Below are positions 7,744 through 44,905 of a stretch of DNA of 45,503 nt, in pieces; position 1 is the stretch's first letter, and the number at the start of each line of letters is the position of its first letter. Position numbers and translations under genes: made by a program. The notes below the pieces were generated by a model that worked only from the letters and a program-made list of their open reading frames with translations, was not told where the DNA came from and made no database searches. Source of the stretch: an uncultured Verrucomicrobia subdivision 3 bacterium (GTDB taxonomy: Bacteria > Verrucomicrobiota > Verrucomicrobiia > Limisphaerales > UBA8199); assembly GCA_903913865.1 (NCBI GenBank), contig CAIWMU010000031.1, forward strand, positions 1 to 45,503, in the 5' to 3' direction.

Positions 7744-7773
7744 TTGACAGAGCGGCTCGAATGTGTTTTTATT
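7744..7773 (+). promoter_or_regulatory. Sigma-70-like promoter of rplU-rpmA
   Basis: TTGACA at 7744-7749 is a perfect -35. TTTTAT/TTTATT follows at 7767-7773 after a 17-18 bp spacer. The predicted start of transcription is near 7780, leaving a leader of about 20 nt before the rplU ATG. Confidence 0.6.
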
Positions 7774-18393: not shown

Positions 18394-19103
18394 GCCCTGT
18401 CGTATGCCGTCCCCGGCGTTACCCAGGGCATCCGGCATGAATCCCCGGCAACGCTGAAGGCAGCCCTCCAGAGTGCCAAGGTCCCAGCAGAATTACCCCA
18501 CCCCGCGTCCTCGTGCGGCTCTTTTGTGATCCTTGCTGAAGTCCAGTTGGTAGTGTGAAAGGGGCCCCCCCGAAACCCCACAGGAAACACCGTCGTTTCA
18601 GTCCTCTTTGTGACAGGCAGAATACGCAGGATTTCCGGCCTTTTTCCAGTGATGTTTCCACCTCCGACATGCCACTCCCGCTTGCGTGATTTTCACGCAA
18701 AAATGCGTGAATTTCACGCATTGGCATTTTTGGCAGAGATAAAACTGCGTTTTTATTGGGGTTTTTAGCTGCACATTAGCTGGCACGAGATATGCTTTAT
18801 TGGGAATTTGATGAACCTTGAACCCGTGCATGACGCGAAAACCAGTGCCAAATTCACGCTCTGGCGGGTCTCAGTTTCATGCCATGTTTTTCGTGCAAAA
18901 TCCCCTGGCCGGATGTCGCCCCTGCACCGGATAACCCACCCTCGAAATCTGGATGGAACCAGCCGCCCCTTACAGGGTGCTCCCTCCGGTTTCAACCATA
19001 CCGCCCGGGGCGATGCAGGATCCGCCTCCTTCCCGGGTTCCAGTGGACCCGGGGCCATGTCATTCCCAACCAAAAGAAAACACCAGCAACCAAACCCATA
19101 AAA
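18394..19103. other. Intergenic region between dnaG and the giant repeat gene
   Basis: 710 bp without a convincing gene. It contains ATGCCG/CGGCAT inverted copies just after dnaG, the tandem palindromes at 18682-18720, and an AT-rich stretch at 18730-18800 that may hold a promoter. A Cys-rich minus-strand frame (18598-18831) crosses the palindromes and looks accidental. The frame of the giant protein is open back to 18879, but those residues are not signal-peptide-like. Confidence 0.5.
18682..18720. promoter_or_regulatory. Two tandem operator-like palindromes
   Basis: Site 1 is TTGCGTGA-TTT-TCACGCAA (18682-18700). Site 2 is TGCGTGAA-T-TTCACGCA (18704-18720). Both share the half-site TGCGTGA. 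Their centres are about 21 bp apart, two helical turns, so two dimers would sit on the same DNA face. They lie about 385 bp upstream of the giant secreted protein, and could serve it or an unseen promoter nearby. Confidence 0.6.
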
Positions 19104-22100
19104 ATGCAGACCTCCCTGATTCTTGCAACCCTCCTGACGGCCATTTCAATGAGTGGCCAGCCCCAACAGGTTCGCCCCTCCGAGTGCCAGCCCCGGATGC
19201 AGGAGGCGGATGCCCAGCCGATTCCACTGACCACCCCACAGCAAGCCAATGTGGCCGTGGGAAAAGGCCAACCCATCGCCTGGGACGATGTGGGCAGGAA
19301 GGCTACGTTGGACTATTCGGGTGATGGTCTCTCGGTGTTCACCGCCGGCGGCGCAGTTCGGATGCGATGCAACTTTCAGAAACTGGAAGGGGAAGCCACC
19401 GCCGGGGGCTTGTGGATCCTGTCCACCGCCACGCCTGGCGCGGTCGAGCGGTTCCGTCTGGTGGCCAGTGGCATCAATGGGGTGGCGCTCCCGGTGGAGG
19501 GTGTGGTGGCGATGAACAACCAGAGGGCACGCTTCATCCGACCCGGGCTGACGGAGGAATACTCTGTGAGCGTGGACGGCGTCCGCCAGGATTTCGTGGT
19601 GGAGGAACGCCCCACCGGCAGTGGCGAACTGCGCCTGGAACTTGCGCTCACCGGCGCACGGGCCTCGGCCCGACCCGAAGGCGCACGGCTGGTGATGGAT
19701 GGCTCGGGGCGCAGGCTGGCATACACCCGGTTGAACGTGTTGGATGCCAAAGGCAAACCGTTGCCGGCCCGCATCGTCGTGACGCATCCCTCTCCTGCAG
19801 AAGGCATTCCGGCCTCCGGTGCCGGGAGCCGGTTGCCAGTCCACCCCGCTGCTTTGACAGTGGTGGTGAACGATTCCGGGGCCAATTACCCTGTCCGGAT
19901 TGATCCCACATTCAGCGACGACAACTGGACCAGCATGGACGGCCTTCCAGGTGCGAACGACGCCGTTCATGCCGCGGCAGTGGACGATTCCGGAAACCTC
20001 TATATTGGGGGAAGCTTCACTGCGGTCGCGCACATCGCCGCCAATCATGTGGCCCGTTGGGACGGCTCCGGTTGGTCGGCTCTGGGACCGGGTGTGGACG
20101 GCACCGTCACCTCCCTTGCGGTGTCGGGCGGTGATGTTTACGCGGGTGGCAGTTTCACAAACGCGGGCGGCATGACGGCCCTTCGGATTGCCAGATGGAA
20201 CGGGACCAATTGGTTGGCTCTGGGGGCGGGGCTGAGCGGAACGGTCAGTGCACTGGCAATTTCGGGCAGTGATCTTTACGTGGGAGGCAGTTTCACAAAT
20301 GCCGGGGGAATCGCGGCCCTTCGGATTGCCAAATGGGACGGGAGCGTGTGGTCGGGTCTGGGGGCGGGGTTGAACAGTGGTGTTCGTGCTCTGGCAGTAT
20401 CGGGCACCCATCTGTTCGTGGCAGGATATTTCACGACCGCAGGCGGGATCACGGCAAACCATGTTGCCAGATGGGACGGGACAAACTGGTCGGCCCTGGC
20501 CTCGGGCCTGAACAGTGCTGCTTATGCACTGGCGGTGTCGGGATCTGACCTTTACGTGGGCGGTTATTTCACATCCGCAGGGGTCGCTGGGGCCAACAAC
20601 GTGGCCAAATGGGACGGCACCAGTTGGTCGGCTCTGGGGACGGGGCTTGGCAGCCAGGTGAACGCCCTGGCAGTGTCGGGCAATGATCTCTACGCGGGCG
20701 GCATGTTCACGACTGCAGGCGGAATCGGGGCCGGATATGCCGCCAAATGGGACGGGACCAATTGGGCGGCCCTCGGCGCGGGGCTGAACGGCATGGTTAA
20801 TGCCCTGGCGTTTTCGGGCAATGATCTCTATGTCGGTGGCGTTTTCTCGATCGCAGGCGGTTTCGCGGCCTTCCAGGTTGCCAAATTTGACGGAAGCGGT
20901 TGGTCCCCCATGGGCTCTGGACTGAACGGCCAGGTCACTGCGCTGGCGGTTTCGGGCACGGATCTTTACCTGGGTGGCACCTTCTGGACTGTGGGCGCTA
21001 TCACTGCAAACCACATCGCCAAATGGGACGGAACCAACTGGTCGGCCCTTGGGTCCGGGCTGAACGGCGATGTTAACACACTGGCCGTGTCCGGCACGGA
21101 TCTATATGTGGGCGGTAGTTTCTCGCAGGCAGGCGGAATCACATCCCACGCGTTGGCCAAATGGAACGGAACCAATTGGTCGGCTTTGAGTCTGATACGT
21201 TGGGACACTGTTTATGCACTTCTTTTCTCGGGCAGCAATCTTTATGCAGGCGGCACCTTCAAGATCCCGGGCCCAACCCGGGGAACCAATCTGGCCAAAT
21301 GGGACGGGACGAATTGGTCGCCCCTGGGGATACGGCCGAACGGCCCTGTTTATGCCCTGGCAGTTTCGGGCAGTGACCTGTATGCCGGAGGCAAATTCAC
21401 GAGCGTGGGCGGGGTCGCAGCCACCAATGTGGCCAAATTGAGCGGGACCAACTGGTCAGCCTTGGGGACAGGGACGAGGGGCCCTGTTTATGCGCTCGCA
21501 GCATCCGGCGGTATTCTTTACGCGGGAGGGGCGTTCACCAACACGGGAGCGTTCCCGGCCAAAAATGTGGCAAGCTGGGATGGGAACAGTTGGTCTCCCC
21601 TGGGGACGGGGGTGAAGGGCACTGTCAATGCCCTGGGGGTGTCGGGGGTGTATCTTTATGTTGGCGGCACCTTTACCAACGCGGGCGGCATCGCCGCCAG
21701 CCGGATAGCCAGATGGAATGGAAGCAATTGGTCAGCCTTGGGATCAGGAGTGAACAACCCTGTATTAGCCCTGGCCATGTCGGACACTGCTGTTTACCTA
21801 AGCGGCACTTTCACGACAGCCGGGGGAAAGGTCTCCGCTTACGTGGCCAAACTGCCTGAGGGCCGCCAGGCGCCCGCCACGATCAACCTGACCCAACTGA
21901 ACCAGATCTACAACGGCACCGCCAGGTGCGCTTCCGCCGCCACATTGCCACCGGATCTGGCCGTCACCCTGACCTATGACGGCACAGCCACCTGCCCAAC
22001 CAACGCCGGAACTTACACAGTGGTGGGCACGGTGAACGATCCGGATTACACGGGAACCGTGACAAACATGCTGGTGGTGGCGAAGGCAACTCTTTTTGCC

Positions 22101-22811
22101 GCCGGGGAGAGCCGGTCGCGCCTGTATGGATCCTTGAACCCACACATGATTGTGCGCTACACAGGGTTCGTAAACGGGGAGACATCCTCCGTATTGACCA
22201 CCCGCCCCGTCGCACAGACCTTCGCAACCCGCTCCAGTCCGGTGGGGGATTATGAAATAACAGTCACCGGTGGGACCGCCGCCAACTACGATGTGGTGCC
22301 TGTCTCAGGCGTTTTCACCGTCACCCGTGCGCCCTTGACCGTTTACTGTGACAACCAGACCCGGTTTGAAGGGCAGGAAAATCCTGTGCTGACCGGGACG
22401 GTGACCGGTGTGATTCCTGGAGATGCCATTACTGCGGGATATACGACGACCGCCCTCAAACAAAGCCCGGCCGGAACATACCCGATCCTGCCTGTTTTCA
22501 TGGATCCGGAGGGGAAACTTGGAAACTACAACGTCACGACGAACGCCGGGGTGCTGACCGTGAAGGCGGCTGTAACCGGGGGAATGCTGTCTGTGGATGC
22601 ACGAGACATCCAATTGCCCGGGCCTGAAGGCGGGGTGCGGATCCGGCTGCAAGGGACAGCCAGCCAGGCCTACCGGATTGAGGTGTCCGGGAATCTGGAC
22701 CTCTGGGATGTTCTCACCCGGGGTGTGGCCGGGACGAATGGCGTGTTCGATGTGCGGGACACCCAATCGGGCAGTTTCCCCCACCGCTTTTATAGGGCGG
22801 TTTCCGAGTAG
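19104..22811 (+). CDS. Giant secreted repeat protein with propeller-like and MBG domains
   Basis: A 1235-residue exported protein of unknown function, starting at the ATG at 19104, which opens a signal peptide (MQTSLILATLLTAISMSGQ). Residues about 20-270 form a mixed domain. About 272-919 hold 14 tandem units of roughly 45 residues with the consensus LAVSGSDLYVGGxFTxAGG / VAKWDGTNWSALGxGLNG, resembling beta-propeller blades (enough for two seven-bladed rings). About 926-1155 hold MBG-type Ig-like repeats (YGSLNPHMIVRYTGFVNGE and related). The C-terminal 80 residues (YRIEVSGNLDLWDVLTRG ending HRFYRAVSE) form a small beta domain also present in the BspA-like gene at 43311. The gene ends against a second copy of the dnaG tail. 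A role in surface adhesion or binding is inference. Confidence 0.85.
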   Translation: MQTSLILATLLTAISMSGQPQQVRPSECQPRMQEADAQPIPLTTPQQANVAVGKGQPIAWDDVGRKATLDYSGDGLSVFTAGGAVRMRCNFQKLEGEATAGGLWILSTATPGAVERFRLVASGINGVALPVEGVVAMNNQRARFIRPGLTEEYSVSVDGVRQDFVVEERPTGSGELRLELALTGARASARPEGARLVMDGSGRRLAYTRLNVLDAKGKPLPARIVVTHPSPAEGIPASGAGSRLPVHPAALTVVVNDSGANYPVRIDPTFSDDNWTSMDGLPGANDAVHAAAVDDSGNLYIGGSFTAVAHIAANHVARWDGSGWSALGPGVDGTVTSLAVSGGDVYAGGSFTNAGGMTALRIARWNGTNWLALGAGLSGTVSALAISGSDLYVGGSFTNAGGIAALRIAKWDGSVWSGLGAGLNSGVRALAVSGTHLFVAGYFTTAGGITANHVARWDGTNWSALASGLNSAAYALAVSGSDLYVGGYFTSAGVAGANNVAKWDGTSWSALGTGLGSQVNALAVSGNDLYAGGMFTTAGGIGAGYAAKWDGTNWAALGAGLNGMVNALAFSGNDLYVGGVFSIAGGFAAFQVAKFDGSGWSPMGSGLNGQVTALAVSGTDLYLGGTFWTVGAITANHIAKWDGTNWSALGSGLNGDVNTLAVSGTDLYVGGSFSQAGGITSHALAKWNGTNWSALSLIRWDTVYALLFSGSNLYAGGTFKIPGPTRGTNLAKWDGTNWSPLGIRPNGPVYALAVSGSDLYAGGKFTSVGGVAATNVAKLSGTNWSALGTGTRGPVYALAASGGILYAGGAFTNTGAFPAKNVASWDGNSWSPLGTGVKGTVNALGVSGVYLYVGGTFTNAGGIAASRIARWNGSNWSALGSGVNNPVLALAMSDTAVYLSGTFTTAGGKVSAYVAKLPEGRQAPATINLTQLNQIYNGTARCASAATLPPDLAVTLTYDGTATCPTNAGTYTVVGTVNDPDYTGTVTNMLVVAKATLFAAGESRSRLYGSLNPHMIVRYTGFVNGETSSVLTTRPVAQTFATRSSPVGDYEITVTGGTAANYDVVPVSGVFTVTRAPLTVYCDNQTRFEGQENPVLTGTVTGVIPGDAITAGYTTTALKQSPAGTYPILPVFMDPEGKLGNYNVTTNAGVLTVKAAVTGGMLSVDARDIQLPGPEGGVRIRLQGTASQAYRIEVSGNLDLWDVLTRGVAGTNGVFDVRDTQSGSFPHRFYRAVSE
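20010..21855 (+). repeat. Tandem coding repeats of about 135 bp, 14 units
   Basis: The repeats encode the LYVGGSFT/AKWDGTNWSAL units of the giant protein. They are visibly similar at DNA level, for example AAATGGGACGGGACCAA and close variants recurring in most units. Copy number could therefore change by slippage or recombination. Confidence 0.85.
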
Positions 22812-37058: not shown

Positions 37059-38381
37059 TCAGGCGACCCAGACCAGTGCCTCGCGATCCAGTTCCCCCTT
37101 GTTGACCAGGGTTGCCTCGACGACACGCGTGGAAACATTGAAATGGGCGGCGGCTTCCACGATATCGTCATCATCCGGCTGGGTGGTCTGAACCTTCTCC
37201 AGCAAGGCGCCGAAGGGACAGAGGAACTCCTGGGCGAACGCGCGTTGAAACTGTTGACGCGCAGTTTTGGCGCTGGTCGCCGGAATGAGGCGGCCCCCGT
37301 GGGAATGAAAAAGGTGGTCCCCAAGAAGTCTGCTGGCTGCAAACCGGCGGCTTGTGGGGTGCGCCCTGCTCAAGTAAAAATCAGCGTTCTTCCGGTTTGC
37401 CCCCCGCAAAAGAAGCGGCATGGGGGCCGGCCCCTTTTCCACTTCATGGAAGATGGCCTCCCTGGTCCCGAGCAGGTCCGCCAGTCTTGCGTTTGTGACC
37501 GGCCCGCTGCCGAATCCCCATTCCTGCCGCGCCAACCGGGCCAGCATGGCCGCCCGCTGCCATGGCCGCGCCTCCGCCTCGTATTCCGGCTTCGCAGCCA
37601 GTTCCGGCAGCGTGCCGCCAAACGCAACCGCCGACGCGGCTGCCCCGCCACTGGCCAGCGAAAGAATCTGGTTGAGCATTCCGGCGGTTGAGCCCCGGCC
37701 CTGCGCCGCCACTTCCTCCAGTGCACCGCCACCCAGCCCGGCCTTGTCCGTGACCAGCATCGCGATGATCTCCTCCGGTGCCTCGCCCGGATCAAAACCA
37801 CAGATTGCCTCCAACCTCCGCTCCCGCGCCAGTTCGGGATTTCGGCGCTCCTTCAGCACTTCCGCCCAGAGACCGGCCAGTTCGGATTTCTCGAAGCCTT
37901 CAGAATGCAGCCTGGACAGCACCAGCGTGAGGAACGCGTCGATTGCGCTCTCAAAGGCCCTGCCCGTGATCCGTGTGTTGACCTCGTTCAAATAACGCAC
38001 CGGGCCCAGCACACGCCCCCGGGTCGCCCGCGAAGCCACCGCCAGCGTGTCTCCGTCGCTGGCAAACAGGATGCTCGGCCAGCAGTAGCCATCCCCGGCG
38101 GAGGCCATTGAGTGGGACATGCGCCAGTCCACATCACCCAGCGAGGCTGGCGTCTCAGGCTCCCAGCGCAGACGCCACCAATTCCCCGCCAGCCAGCACG
38201 CAAGGGTGTGCGCGGAGGCGTGCAGGCGGTTCCGCACGGTGTTTCCCCACGAATCCTCCAGCCGCGTCAACCATTGGTCCCCCACGCTGATCCCGATCGC
38301 TCCCCGTGAGGCCTGGGAGATGTCGTTCTCCGCATCCAGCCGGCCCGACCACTCACATTCGATTTTCAGGGCATCATCCAT
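37059..38381 (-). CDS. ImmA/IrrE-like protein with degenerate HExxH
   Basis: A 440-residue cytoplasmic protein starting at MDDALKIECEW (ATG 38379-38381). The N-terminal two thirds have tryptophan-rich motifs (CWLAGNWWRLRWEP; DGYCWPSILFASDGD) and LEAICGFDPGEAPEEII; I know no name for this domain. The C-terminal third has the layout of ImmA/IrrE (DUF955) metallopeptidases. RRFAASRLLGDHL sits where RFxxAHELGHHL is expected, and QRAFAQEFLCPFGAL where the third metal ligand and MP motif normally lie (E385 kept). The zinc-binding H-E-x-x-H is replaced by R351, L352 and D355, so peptidase activity is doubtful. The ATG overlaps the preceding gene by 8 nt. Confidence 0.75.
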   Translation of the reverse strand: MDDALKIECEWSGRLDAENDISQASRGAIGISVGDQWLTRLEDSWGNTVRNRLHASAHTLACWLAGNWWRLRWEPETPASLGDVDWRMSHSMASAGDGYCWPSILFASDGDTLAVASRATRGRVLGPVRYLNEVNTRITGRAFESAIDAFLTLVLSRLHSEGFEKSELAGLWAEVLKERRNPELARERRLEAICGFDPGEAPEEIIAMLVTDKAGLGGGALEEVAAQGRGSTAGMLNQILSLASGGAAASAVAFGGTLPELAAKPEYEAEARPWQRAAMLARLARQEWGFGSGPVTNARLADLLGTREAIFHEVEKGPAPMPLLLRGANRKNADFYLSRAHPTSRRFAASRLLGDHLFHSHGGRLIPATSAKTARQQFQRAFAQEFLCPFGALLEKVQTTQPDDDDIVEAAAHFNVSTRVVEATLVNKGELDREALVWVA

Positions 38382-38805
38382 GGTTTTGATTCCATTTGGT
38401 GATGACACTCTCCCGGAAGTCGTCGTTCGCCTCGAGCGGATAGCCATGGTAGGTGCCATTGCCGGGATTCTCCAGCTGGGCTTCCAACGGGATTCCATCC
38501 TCCGTCATTGACCAGATATTCTTGGGGTAGCCGGTTCCATCCCATTCACTGATCATCCCCCGCCTGATCCCCAGCCGCAGCAATCTCAACGCCTCCGCCC
38601 GCCGAAACAGGCGGACCTCATCGCAGAGAGACTTATCGTCCCGTGGCAGCGAAGGCGGAGTCAGCCCGAAGTCCCCAGGATTCCGCTTGTGGGCGGGTTT
38701 CCCTCCATAACGAACCTCCGCAGCCAGCTTCTCCAGTGCTTCGGGTGCTGGAAGGCCGCTGGCAAAACGTCGTTTGCGGTTGAACCTGGTGCGGGTCGCG
38801 GGCAT
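38374..38805 (-). CDS. Small protein paired with the ImmA-like gene, unknown
   Basis: A 143-residue protein starting at the ATG at 38803-38805. The N-terminus is very basic (TRTRFNRKRRFASG). A conserved-looking core follows (VRYGGKPAHKRNPGDFGLTPP, KSLCDEV), then a helix (FRRAEALRLLRLGIRRGM) and WSMTEDGIPLEAQLENPGNGTYHGYPL. From memory, proteins with a YxGxPxHK...LCD pattern recur in many bacteria beside ImmA/IrrE-like genes. I cannot name a function. It shares 8 nt with the start of the 440-residue gene, so translation is coupled and the two probably act together. Confidence 0.7.
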   Translation of the reverse strand: MPATRTRFNRKRRFASGLPAPEALEKLAAEVRYGGKPAHKRNPGDFGLTPPSLPRDDKSLCDEVRLFRRAEALRLLRLGIRRGMISEWDGTGYPKNIWSMTEDGIPLEAQLENPGNGTYHGYPLEANDDFRESVITKWNQNHG

Positions 38806-43310: not shown

Positions 43311-44066
43311 TCAAGGAAGACGAAGGCGATAAACCCGGGTGGAGCTGCTTGATGAAGCCGGATCGCTAAAGCTGGAAGTTCCCCCTGTGAGTGTGTTCGT
43401 GCTGATGGCAGACCATGTGGGATTGCCCAGATCGTTGCAAGCCTCGACGATCACCACCTGATCCGCCGCACCATTGATCGTGAATCCAAACCGGTCCACG
43501 GCGAATGCGGCGGCGGAAATGCTGAGAGGAATCACAGGTGCCCCAAGGGCTACGGCGGGACGACCGGCATAGGTGCTGCCCCACCCCTTTCTGTCGTGGT
43601 CATAATAAACGGTCGTGTCGTTATCCCCATAAAACACATAAGATCCCTCGCGTGGAGCGTCCCCCCTGAAATGAACCTGCTTCAGGCTGGCACAGGATGA
43701 AAAAGTCCAATCTCCGCTGCTGGTAACACTGGCAGGCACGGTAACAGTCGCCAGACCGGTGCATCCGGAAAAGGCTCCCTCCCCAATGGTCGTGACGCCG
43801 TCCGGTATCGTGACATCAGTCAACCCGCTGCAACTGGAAAAGGCGTAGGTTCCGATGGACACGACGCTTGATGGAATTGTGACGTCTGTGAGGCGGTTGC
43901 AACTCGAAAATGCGTAGCCTTCAATGCTGATAACCCCATCCGGGATCGTGTAGACCCCAACACGACCTTCAGGGTAGCGCATCAGCGCGGTCTGGCCCTT
44001 ATTGAACAGAACACCGTCCACGCTGGAAAACACCATGTTTTGGGCATCCACAGTGATGGACTTCAA
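43311..44066 (-). CDS. BspA-like LRR protein, C-terminal half after frameshift
   Basis: 251 codons from an unlikely TTG start. It continues, one frame over, the LRR_5 repeats of the upstream frame. It begins KSITVDAQNMVFSSVDGVLFNKGQTALMRYPEG, the usual interruption in BspA repeats, then repeats such as LTDVTIPSSVVSIGTYAFSSCSG. A linker follows (FYGDNDTTVYYDHDRKGWG). The last 75 residues form a small beta domain (FGFTINGAADQVVIVEACNDL ending TRVYRLRLP) also found at the end of the giant protein at 19104. There is no independent ribosome-binding site. The intact product would be a surface or secreted adhesin-like protein. Confidence 0.75.
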   Translation of the reverse strand: MKSITVDAQNMVFSSVDGVLFNKGQTALMRYPEGRVGVYTIPDGVISIEGYAFSSCNRLTDVTIPSSVVSIGTYAFSSCSGLTDVTIPDGVTTIGEGAFSGCTGLATVTVPASVTSSGDWTFSSCASLKQVHFRGDAPREGSYVFYGDNDTTVYYDHDRKGWGSTYAGRPAVALGAPVIPLSISAAAFAVDRFGFTINGAADQVVIVEACNDLGNPTWSAISTNTLTGGTSSFSDPASSSSSTRVYRLRLP

Positions 44067-44905
44067 CCCATGCAGCGGGAGAACGCGTAGGCTTCAATAA
44101 ACGCCACATTCACTGGAAGGTTCACTGCGGTCAGGTTGACACACCCATAGAATGAGTAACTCTCAATGTTCGTCAGACCGACCCCCATCGTGACATCCGA
44201 GAGGCTTGAGCAGTTGTAAAAGGCGTAATTCTCAATCTCGGTGAGTCCATCCGGCATGGTCACTGTGGTCAATTTCCCACACCCTGAGAAAGCATAAGTG
44301 CCGAGGGTTGTCACTCTCTCCGGGATTGCCACCCCGGTCAGACTCGTACAGTAGGAAAAGGTCTCTGCACCGATCGCCATCAGGGTTGAGGGAAGTGAAA
44401 GGCTCAAGAGTCCAGTGCACCGAAGAAACGCACCGTCTCCAATTTTGGTCACCCCCTCCGGAATGACGACACTTTTCAACCTCGCGCAGTAGGCGAAGGC
44501 TTTTTGCCCGATCCGGTTAACCCCGACCGGGATGGTGATGTCCGTAAGATCAATCGTCCGCGAAAACGCTTCCCCACCGATCGCTGTGACCGGGGTCCCG
44601 TTGATGCTCTCAGGAATGACCACCACCCCTGATGTCCCCGTGTAGCCAAGAATAGTGGCCTTTCCGTCCTCGATTGAATACTTGAAGTCACTCTGGGCCA
44701 TGACGGAAATGGAGATCGCCAACTGGAGAAGGATCAAAGGCAGAAGCCTGAACTTCCAAACTCCGCACACCGTTGGCGTCATGGATGAAGACTGCGCCGA
44801 CCACCGGCAAGCCTGAAAAACAGTTCCCCTGCCCCCGTTTCCGTGATGGTGACCATTCGATCCCCCCTGAACCCTACCCGACTTCATGTTCTTTTTCATA
44901 TCCAT
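44063..44905 (-). CDS. BspA-like LRR protein, N-terminal half before frameshift
   Basis: 280 residues. A signal peptide is present (KFRLLPLILLQLAISISVMAQ). It is best formed from the ATG at 44780-44782, though the frame opens at 44905 with an unusually long His/Gly-rich leader. After a short DFKYSIEDGKATILGYTG domain come BspA-type LRR_5 repeats of about 23 residues (LTDITIPVGVNRIGQKAFAYCAR). The frame stops at SRCMG followed by TGA. Adding one base in the GGGTT just before the stop restores SRCMG-L-KSITVDA, which joins it to the next frame. Confidence 0.8.
   Translation of the reverse strand: MDMKKNMKSGRVQGGSNGHHHGNGGRGTVFQACRWSAQSSSMTPTVCGVWKFRLLPLILLQLAISISVMAQSDFKYSIEDGKATILGYTGTSGVVVIPESINGTPVTAIGGEAFSRTIDLTDITIPVGVNRIGQKAFAYCARLKSVVIPEGVTKIGDGAFLRCTGLLSLSLPSTLMAIGAETFSYCTSLTGVAIPERVTTLGTYAFSGCGKLTTVTMPDGLTEIENYAFYNCSSLSDVTMGVGLTNIESYSFYGCVNLTAVNLPVNVAFIEAYAFSRCMG

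Follow-up and report, generated by a model that had tools for sequence, protein, structure and literature searches.

A conserved gene pair with an ImmA/IrrE-type protein devoid of zinc ligands: a candidate toxin-antitoxin-like module

Two overlapping genes lie among sugar-metabolism genes in a contig of an uncultured Verrucomicrobia bacterium, and the product of the larger one resembles the ImmA/IrrE metallopeptidases in fold, while the residues that would hold the zinc ion are replaced. Do these genes form a unit, and which role might an ImmA/IrrE domain play once its metal site is gone? The following features of the window (the whole stretch of DNA analysed, 45,503 nucleotides) are considered here:

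38374..38805, minus strand: gene of the small basic protein, 143 aa (P0002), candidate toxin with a predicted BECR/RelE-like fold; from translation
37059..38381, minus strand: gene of the large acidic protein, 440 aa (P0001), candidate antitoxin/sensor; from translation
38374..38381, minus strand: 8-nt overlap of the two frames; from the sequence
37887..38381, minus strand: N-terminal domain of the large protein, residues about 1-165, predicted CdiI/Whirly-like fold; from predicted-structure matches
37062..37592, minus strand: C-terminal ImmA/IrrE (M78-like) domain of the large protein, residues about 264-440, without zinc ligands; from Pfam and predicted structure
37317..37331, minus strand: RLLGD, residues 351-355 of the large protein, at the HExxH position; from homologue comparison
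37233..37256, minus strand: QQFQRAFA, residues 376-383 of the large protein, Q376 at the position of the third zinc ligand; from homologue comparison

A conserved and co-inherited gene pair

A first-pass annotation of this DNA had described open reading frames of 143 and 440 codons that overlap by 8 nt, the shorter one coding for a small basic protein. Translation bears out both frames and the overlap, and the small protein has a pI of 9.4 (family median 9.5; median of the large family, 5.4). The start that yields 440 aa is the one common to the homologues of the large protein, and the open frame extends 39 codons upstream of it. In the homologues measured, the overlap of the small and large frames ranges from 1 to 13 nt, 4 and 8 nt being the commonest lengths. 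Since both frames and their overlap are found again in distant homologues, they are not chance open reading frames. The assembly comprises 6.27 Mb in 267 contigs, where the large gene is present in a single copy and is the sole M78 match found. The closest named relative is a Verrucomicrobia MAG, with identities of 61% for the large and 71% for the small protein.

The profiles of the small and the large protein each match 10 of 388 genomes of the phylum; these are the same 10, the matches lie in adjacent places, and the remaining 378 genomes carry neither gene. The objection that homologues of the two genes might fail to co-occur thus falls away, as co-occurrence is perfect in this survey. Wherever enough upstream DNA is available, the small gene or a remnant of it directly precedes the large gene (22 of 23 cases); the exception is a second, distant large copy (G363:C2, L054:8300-9757), upstream of which no recognisable small gene is found. 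Besides relatives from the same phylum, two IMG/VR contigs and a number of proteobacterial plasmids carry pairs; the plasmids belong to Massilia, Allorhizobium, Rhizobium, Sphingomonas, Tistrella and Agrobacterium, and Acidithiobacillus plasmids have fragments. The phage collection searched contained no relatives of the pair. In the record of the Massilia sp. H6 plasmid (L008:7564-7995) the small gene is annotated too short, with a start at locus position 7753; homology gives a full-length 143-aa frame from 7564.

The pairwise divergence of the small protein correlates with that of the large protein (r 0.80, Mantel p 0.0002, 19 pairs), which is the outcome expected of joint inheritance and by itself is not proof of binding. 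With two adjacent, overlapping and co-inherited genes, the pair has the gene arrangement of type II toxin-antitoxin systems. On plasmid pRetNXC12d of R. etli NXC12 (L090:3850-4500) a solitary small gene is frameshifted and split between two frames, and no large gene was detected there. Decay of a lone small gene is expected if this gene is harmful by itself, and the R. etli plasmid, as one case, points weakly in this direction.

Predicted folds and the replaced zinc site

The ImmA/IrrE-like character ascribed earlier to the C-terminus of the large protein is borne out by structure prediction. Pfam M78 (PF06114) matches residues 338-425 with 22.1 bits, barely above the cut-off of 22. The AlphaFold2 model of the large protein has a mean pLDDT of 89.4 (17 sequences in the alignment); the alignments were made up of window and scanned-locus sequences only. 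In this predicted model, residues 264-440 match CapP (7t5t) with Z 11.9 over 153 residues at 2.9 Å, PprI (8sln) with Z 9.9, IrrE (3dte) with Z 9.7 and a mycobacterial regulator with Z about 8. The modelling of the large protein thus supports an ImmA/IrrE (M78, COG2856) fold, predicted with confidence, and disposes of the objection that this fold might be absent. A match of the large-protein profile to apolipoprotein E, obtained in a PDB sequence search, runs via the helical middle of the protein and was rejected as helical-composition bias.

The zinc ligands H, H and E of this fold correspond to R351, D355 and Q376 in the window copy. The substitution of R-L-L-G-D for H-E-L-G-H had been noticed before and holds (R351-L-L-G-D355). 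The E/CP motif downstream had been regarded as kept, which is correct for FAQEFLCP and incorrect for the zinc-ligand Glu of the motif, since this residue is Gln (Q376). In an alignment made by hand, the HELGH position reads R-[hydrophobic]-[hydrophobic]-G-D across the large family. R351 and Q376 are found in 22/22 homologues and D355 in 15/22; R380, A381, F382 and P389 are invariant as well, and an HExxH motif is present in the ImmA/IrrE domain of none of the 22. Judged by residues R351, D355 and Q376, the large protein is not an active M78 peptidase. The lack of HExxH in all 22 homologues and the invariant replacements indicate that the loss of the zinc site is old and common to the whole family, and that the site, instead of decaying, has had other residues fixed in it. 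The motif initially called “dead” is accordingly better described as an ancestral loss of the zinc site with invariant replacement residues, and the former zinc pocket may have adopted a new role.

The N-terminal domain of the large protein (residues 1-165 of the predicted model) finds its best match in CdiI of Burkholderia dolosa (5ffp; Z 7.0, 125 residues, 3.8 Å), and CdiI of Enterobacter cloacae matches with Z 5.3 (4ntq_B). Further matches are the Whirly proteins (WHY2 4kop, Z 5.9; plant Whirly proteins, Z about 5.5), PUR-alpha (PURA, Z 5.7) and MRP1/2. These matches suggest, as a lead, a CdiI/Whirly-like N-terminus, a Z of 7 being within the range of common arrangements. Such a domain would fit an immunity role and would equally leave room for nucleic-acid binding; its presence makes the large protein the likelier antitoxin of the two.

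The small protein is predicted to consist of helices and a three-stranded sheet. Its model is of moderate quality (pLDDT 77.5), and residues 37-63, which include the invariant H39 and the near-invariant K40, are poorly modelled. The top VIA-align match, a weak one, is the CdiA-CT toxin domain 5t87_E (Z 5.1, 65/69 residues, 3.0 Å), followed by similarly weak matches to MqsR (Z 3.6) and to the RelE and HigB toxins (Z 2.1-2.4), MqsR and HigB being RelE-like. Foldseek searches against the PDB and viral models gave no confident match (best E 0.5), and a profile search of the PDB gave chance matches only. The sequence libraries Pfam, NCBIfam and PADLOC hold no match for the small protein, apart from a chance-level PADLOC hit of one member, so that the small family would represent an uncatalogued candidate toxin family missed by all three.

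RelE/ParE toxins share the BECR (barnase/EndoU/colicin/RelE) fold with several CdiA-CT RNases of known structure, and for most BECR CdiA-CTs with a characterised structure, recognition came from the structure alone (PMC9086364). The small protein is accordingly judged a likely RNase-like toxin, for which a BECR-like fold is suggested. Among 19 homologues, Y33, H39, C61, P94, Y119 and P123 are invariant and K40, W98 and G121 nearly so; H39/K40 and Y119/H120 are candidate active-site residues, as are Y33 and the near-invariant H/K120. The combination of a basic small protein with an acidic partner also counts for a toxin-antitoxin reading.

The roles of the two proteins might nevertheless be reversed or shared, such that the large protein acts as an effector or nucleic-acid-binding sensor and the small one as its inhibitor or co-factor. 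The N-terminal domain matches MRP1/2 as well as the Whirly and PUR-alpha folds, which bind ssDNA or RNA, and PprI and CapP respond to ssDNA (PMC10904395), all of which would suit such a sensor. We nonetheless consider this reading unlikely, given that the best match of the same domain is a CdiI immunity protein, that the matches of the small protein are mainly toxins, that known ImmA-type partners act as antitoxins (PMC10440598) and that the small gene is found alone and decayed in R. etli.

Genomic neighbourhood

The neighbourhood survey proposed along with the first-pass annotation found that neighbours of the pair often are defence genes, including type I and IIG restriction, Dpt, Cas3 and DpdE/ZorD-like genes. 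On the Massilia plasmid dptFGH precede the pair, and on an Agrobacterium plasmid restriction endonuclease genes lie on both sides of it. Ten large neighbours were identified individually. At locus L043 the pair is followed, after about 150 nt, by the gene of a type I restriction enzyme, and at L047, after about 45 nt, by that of a IIG restriction-modification enzyme; an AriA/OLD-like ATPase and a TmtA-like protein are neighbours at L045 and L046, respectively. At L044 (G144:C59; 4725-16709), a dense defence region, the pair is flanked by a DpdE/ZorD-like helicase and Cas3g. Single neighbour proteins checked at four other loci gave no match.

At an E value of 1e-10, 231 PADLOC families were matched among 99 neighbours of the pair, compared to 23 among 59 control proteins encoded elsewhere in these genomes, on other contigs; the 23 consist mostly of type I specificity subunit models, each matched by a single protein. 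Given the redundancy of the PADLOC models and the small size of the control set, which itself includes a type I specificity subunit, the enrichment is taken as a direction only. Overall, an association of the pair with defence genes is suggested.

Some pairs are found in a mobile context, as exemplified by plasmids, by sites near IS elements and by an IMG/VR contig that also encodes a serine recombinase. Together with the M78 domain of the large protein, this would be compatible with an ImmA/ImmR-like regulatory pair of mobile elements, in which the large protein has the small one under its control, or serves as an anti-repressor, and switches a mobile element, no toxin being involved. Such a function appears improbable in view of the peptidase site being lost in 22/22 members, the many copies that adjoin restriction and other defence genes, and the small protein, in which no HTH family was recognised.

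The window copy lies outside a defence island, between DUF6807/Gfo-Idh genes on one side and an AP_endonuc_2 (xylose isomerase-like) gene on the other. It had been proposed to interrupt a sugar-utilisation locus in the manner of a cassette. In favour of this, a congener carries the neighbouring Gfo/Idh and DUF6807 genes in order and without the pair; this congener lacks the gene on the other flank and so offers no demonstrable empty site. As to the cassette part of the proposal, neither convincing terminal repeats nor a GC shift were found at the window pair, which leaves it only partly supported as a whole. That the pair is a stress or metabolic regulator of these flanking sugar genes without any tie to defence is highly improbable despite its position, since the other genomes examined have different neighbourhoods and the congener's Gfo/Idh and DUF6807 genes do without it.

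Several further genes were observed in passing. On the Allorhizobium pseudoryzae plasmid a second overlapping pair of a small and a large gene lies directly downstream of the pair (L009:9769-11120); its larger protein is ATP-grasp-like by eye (cf. graspetide clusters). At L051:9431-10527 (G078:C85) the pair adjoins two genes that by eye are DUF4007 and PAPS-reductase-like (cf. the surroundings of phosphorothioation systems). The window itself also contains a 1310-codon gene with Rax2/beta-propeller and MBG repeats at 18879-22811, probably coding for a surface protein, and a BspA-type leucine-rich repeat protein gene at 44063-44905.

Proposed mode of action and relation to known systems

The pair was initially read as a pseudoenzyme sensor with a partner, i.e., as a candidate toxin-antitoxin, stress or defence system. 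Fold and co-occurrence support this reading, and we lean slightly towards a two-gene toxin-antitoxin-like module, often located in defence islands, with the small protein as toxin and the large one as antitoxin. Its computed basis comprises the pairing, the overlap, the C-terminal fold of the large protein, the loss and replacement of the zinc site and the neighbourhood; we infer toxicity and the identity of the toxic partner, its activity as an RNase, a direct contact between the two proteins, the signal, the way of release and defence activity, in particular against phages.

According to this model, the small basic protein would be the probable toxin, a BECR-fold RNase-like effector, and the large protein its antitoxin, translated from the overlapping start. 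The CdiI/Whirly-like N-terminal domain would bind and block the toxin, a helical middle would follow it, and the C-terminal ImmA/IrrE domain would sense an infection or damage signal. By binding to the Arg/Gln (R351/Q376) pocket or the adjoining HTH-like part, the signal would change the shape of the large protein and loosen its grip on the toxin; alternatively, signal binding might render the large protein a target for a host protease. Release is proposed to occur without self-cleavage on account of the lost metal site and the invariant Arg/Gln pair: judged by these residues, self-cutting of the large protein looks impossible, and a toxin would probably be set free in another way. The specific version in which the pseudo-peptidase serves as a receptor, its Arg/Gln pair binding a phage- or damage-derived ligand and switching off the CdiI-like domain without proteolysis, so that a BECR-fold RNase is released, is more speculative and in this detailed form doubtful.

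ImmA/IrrE antitoxins are thought to act by signal-triggered proteolysis. A family that lacks the metal site, has other residues fixed in its place and is still paired through defence islands would show the ImmA/IrrE domain as a non-cutting sensor, and R351 and Q376 offer a simple residue-level handle on the function of the large protein.

ImmA-domain proteins are established antitoxins, and the ImmA domain is a hub antitoxin in NetFlax, where node D25, RosmerTA, combines the ImmA-domain antitoxin RmrA with various RmrT toxins and is arranged toxin-first in 58% of the pairs (PMC10440598). The present pair likewise has two genes, one of which codes for a protein with an ImmA/IrrE-type domain. 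Unlike in RosmerTA, the peptidase site is lost in all members of the large family and the N-terminal domain is CdiI/Whirly-like instead of a small HTH. The large protein weakly matches the RmrA models over its ImmA part only (about 76/363 profile positions, 20 bits), and the RmrT models match none of 19 small proteins, RmrT toxins being diverse and the library dating from 2023. Judged by the RmrA models, which give no full-length match, the pair is not RosmerTA.

In VapBC52 of M. tuberculosis, the toxin is bound by the N-terminal domain of VapB52, whose IrrE domain cleaves its own protein when triggered by ssDNA (PMC13273310). The large protein shares this layout: an N-terminal domain for toxin binding (here predicted) together with an IrrE/CapP-like domain that includes an HTH part. 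VapB52, however, retains HExxH and reportedly loses toxin binding by self-cleavage (PMC13273310), whereas R, D and Q occupy the ligand positions here; moreover, the toxin of VapBC52 is a VapC protein and the candidate toxin here is BECR-like. The CBASS regulator CapP and PprI/IrrE, to which residues 264-440 are closest in predicted structure, are active metallopeptidases; stimulated by ssDNA, they cleave a repressor that is a separate protein (PMC10904395), while the large protein is without zinc ligands.

Both proteins also recall CDI pairs (CdiA-CT/CdiI), given that the small protein finds its top structural match in a CdiA-CT and that the N-terminal domain of the large protein matches CdiI. 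In contrast to CDI, the candidate toxin is a free-standing gene of 143 codons without a secretion domain or CdiB, and the immunity-like domain forms one protein with an ImmA-like domain; no CdiA or CdiB was seen among the window ORFs examined, and the pair is not assigned to CDI. Makarova and colleagues noted that COG2856 proteins occur as fusions with Xre domains and in the vicinity of RelE and PIN toxins (PMC2701414). Overall, the pair fits best as a new variant among the ImmA-domain toxin-antitoxin modules.
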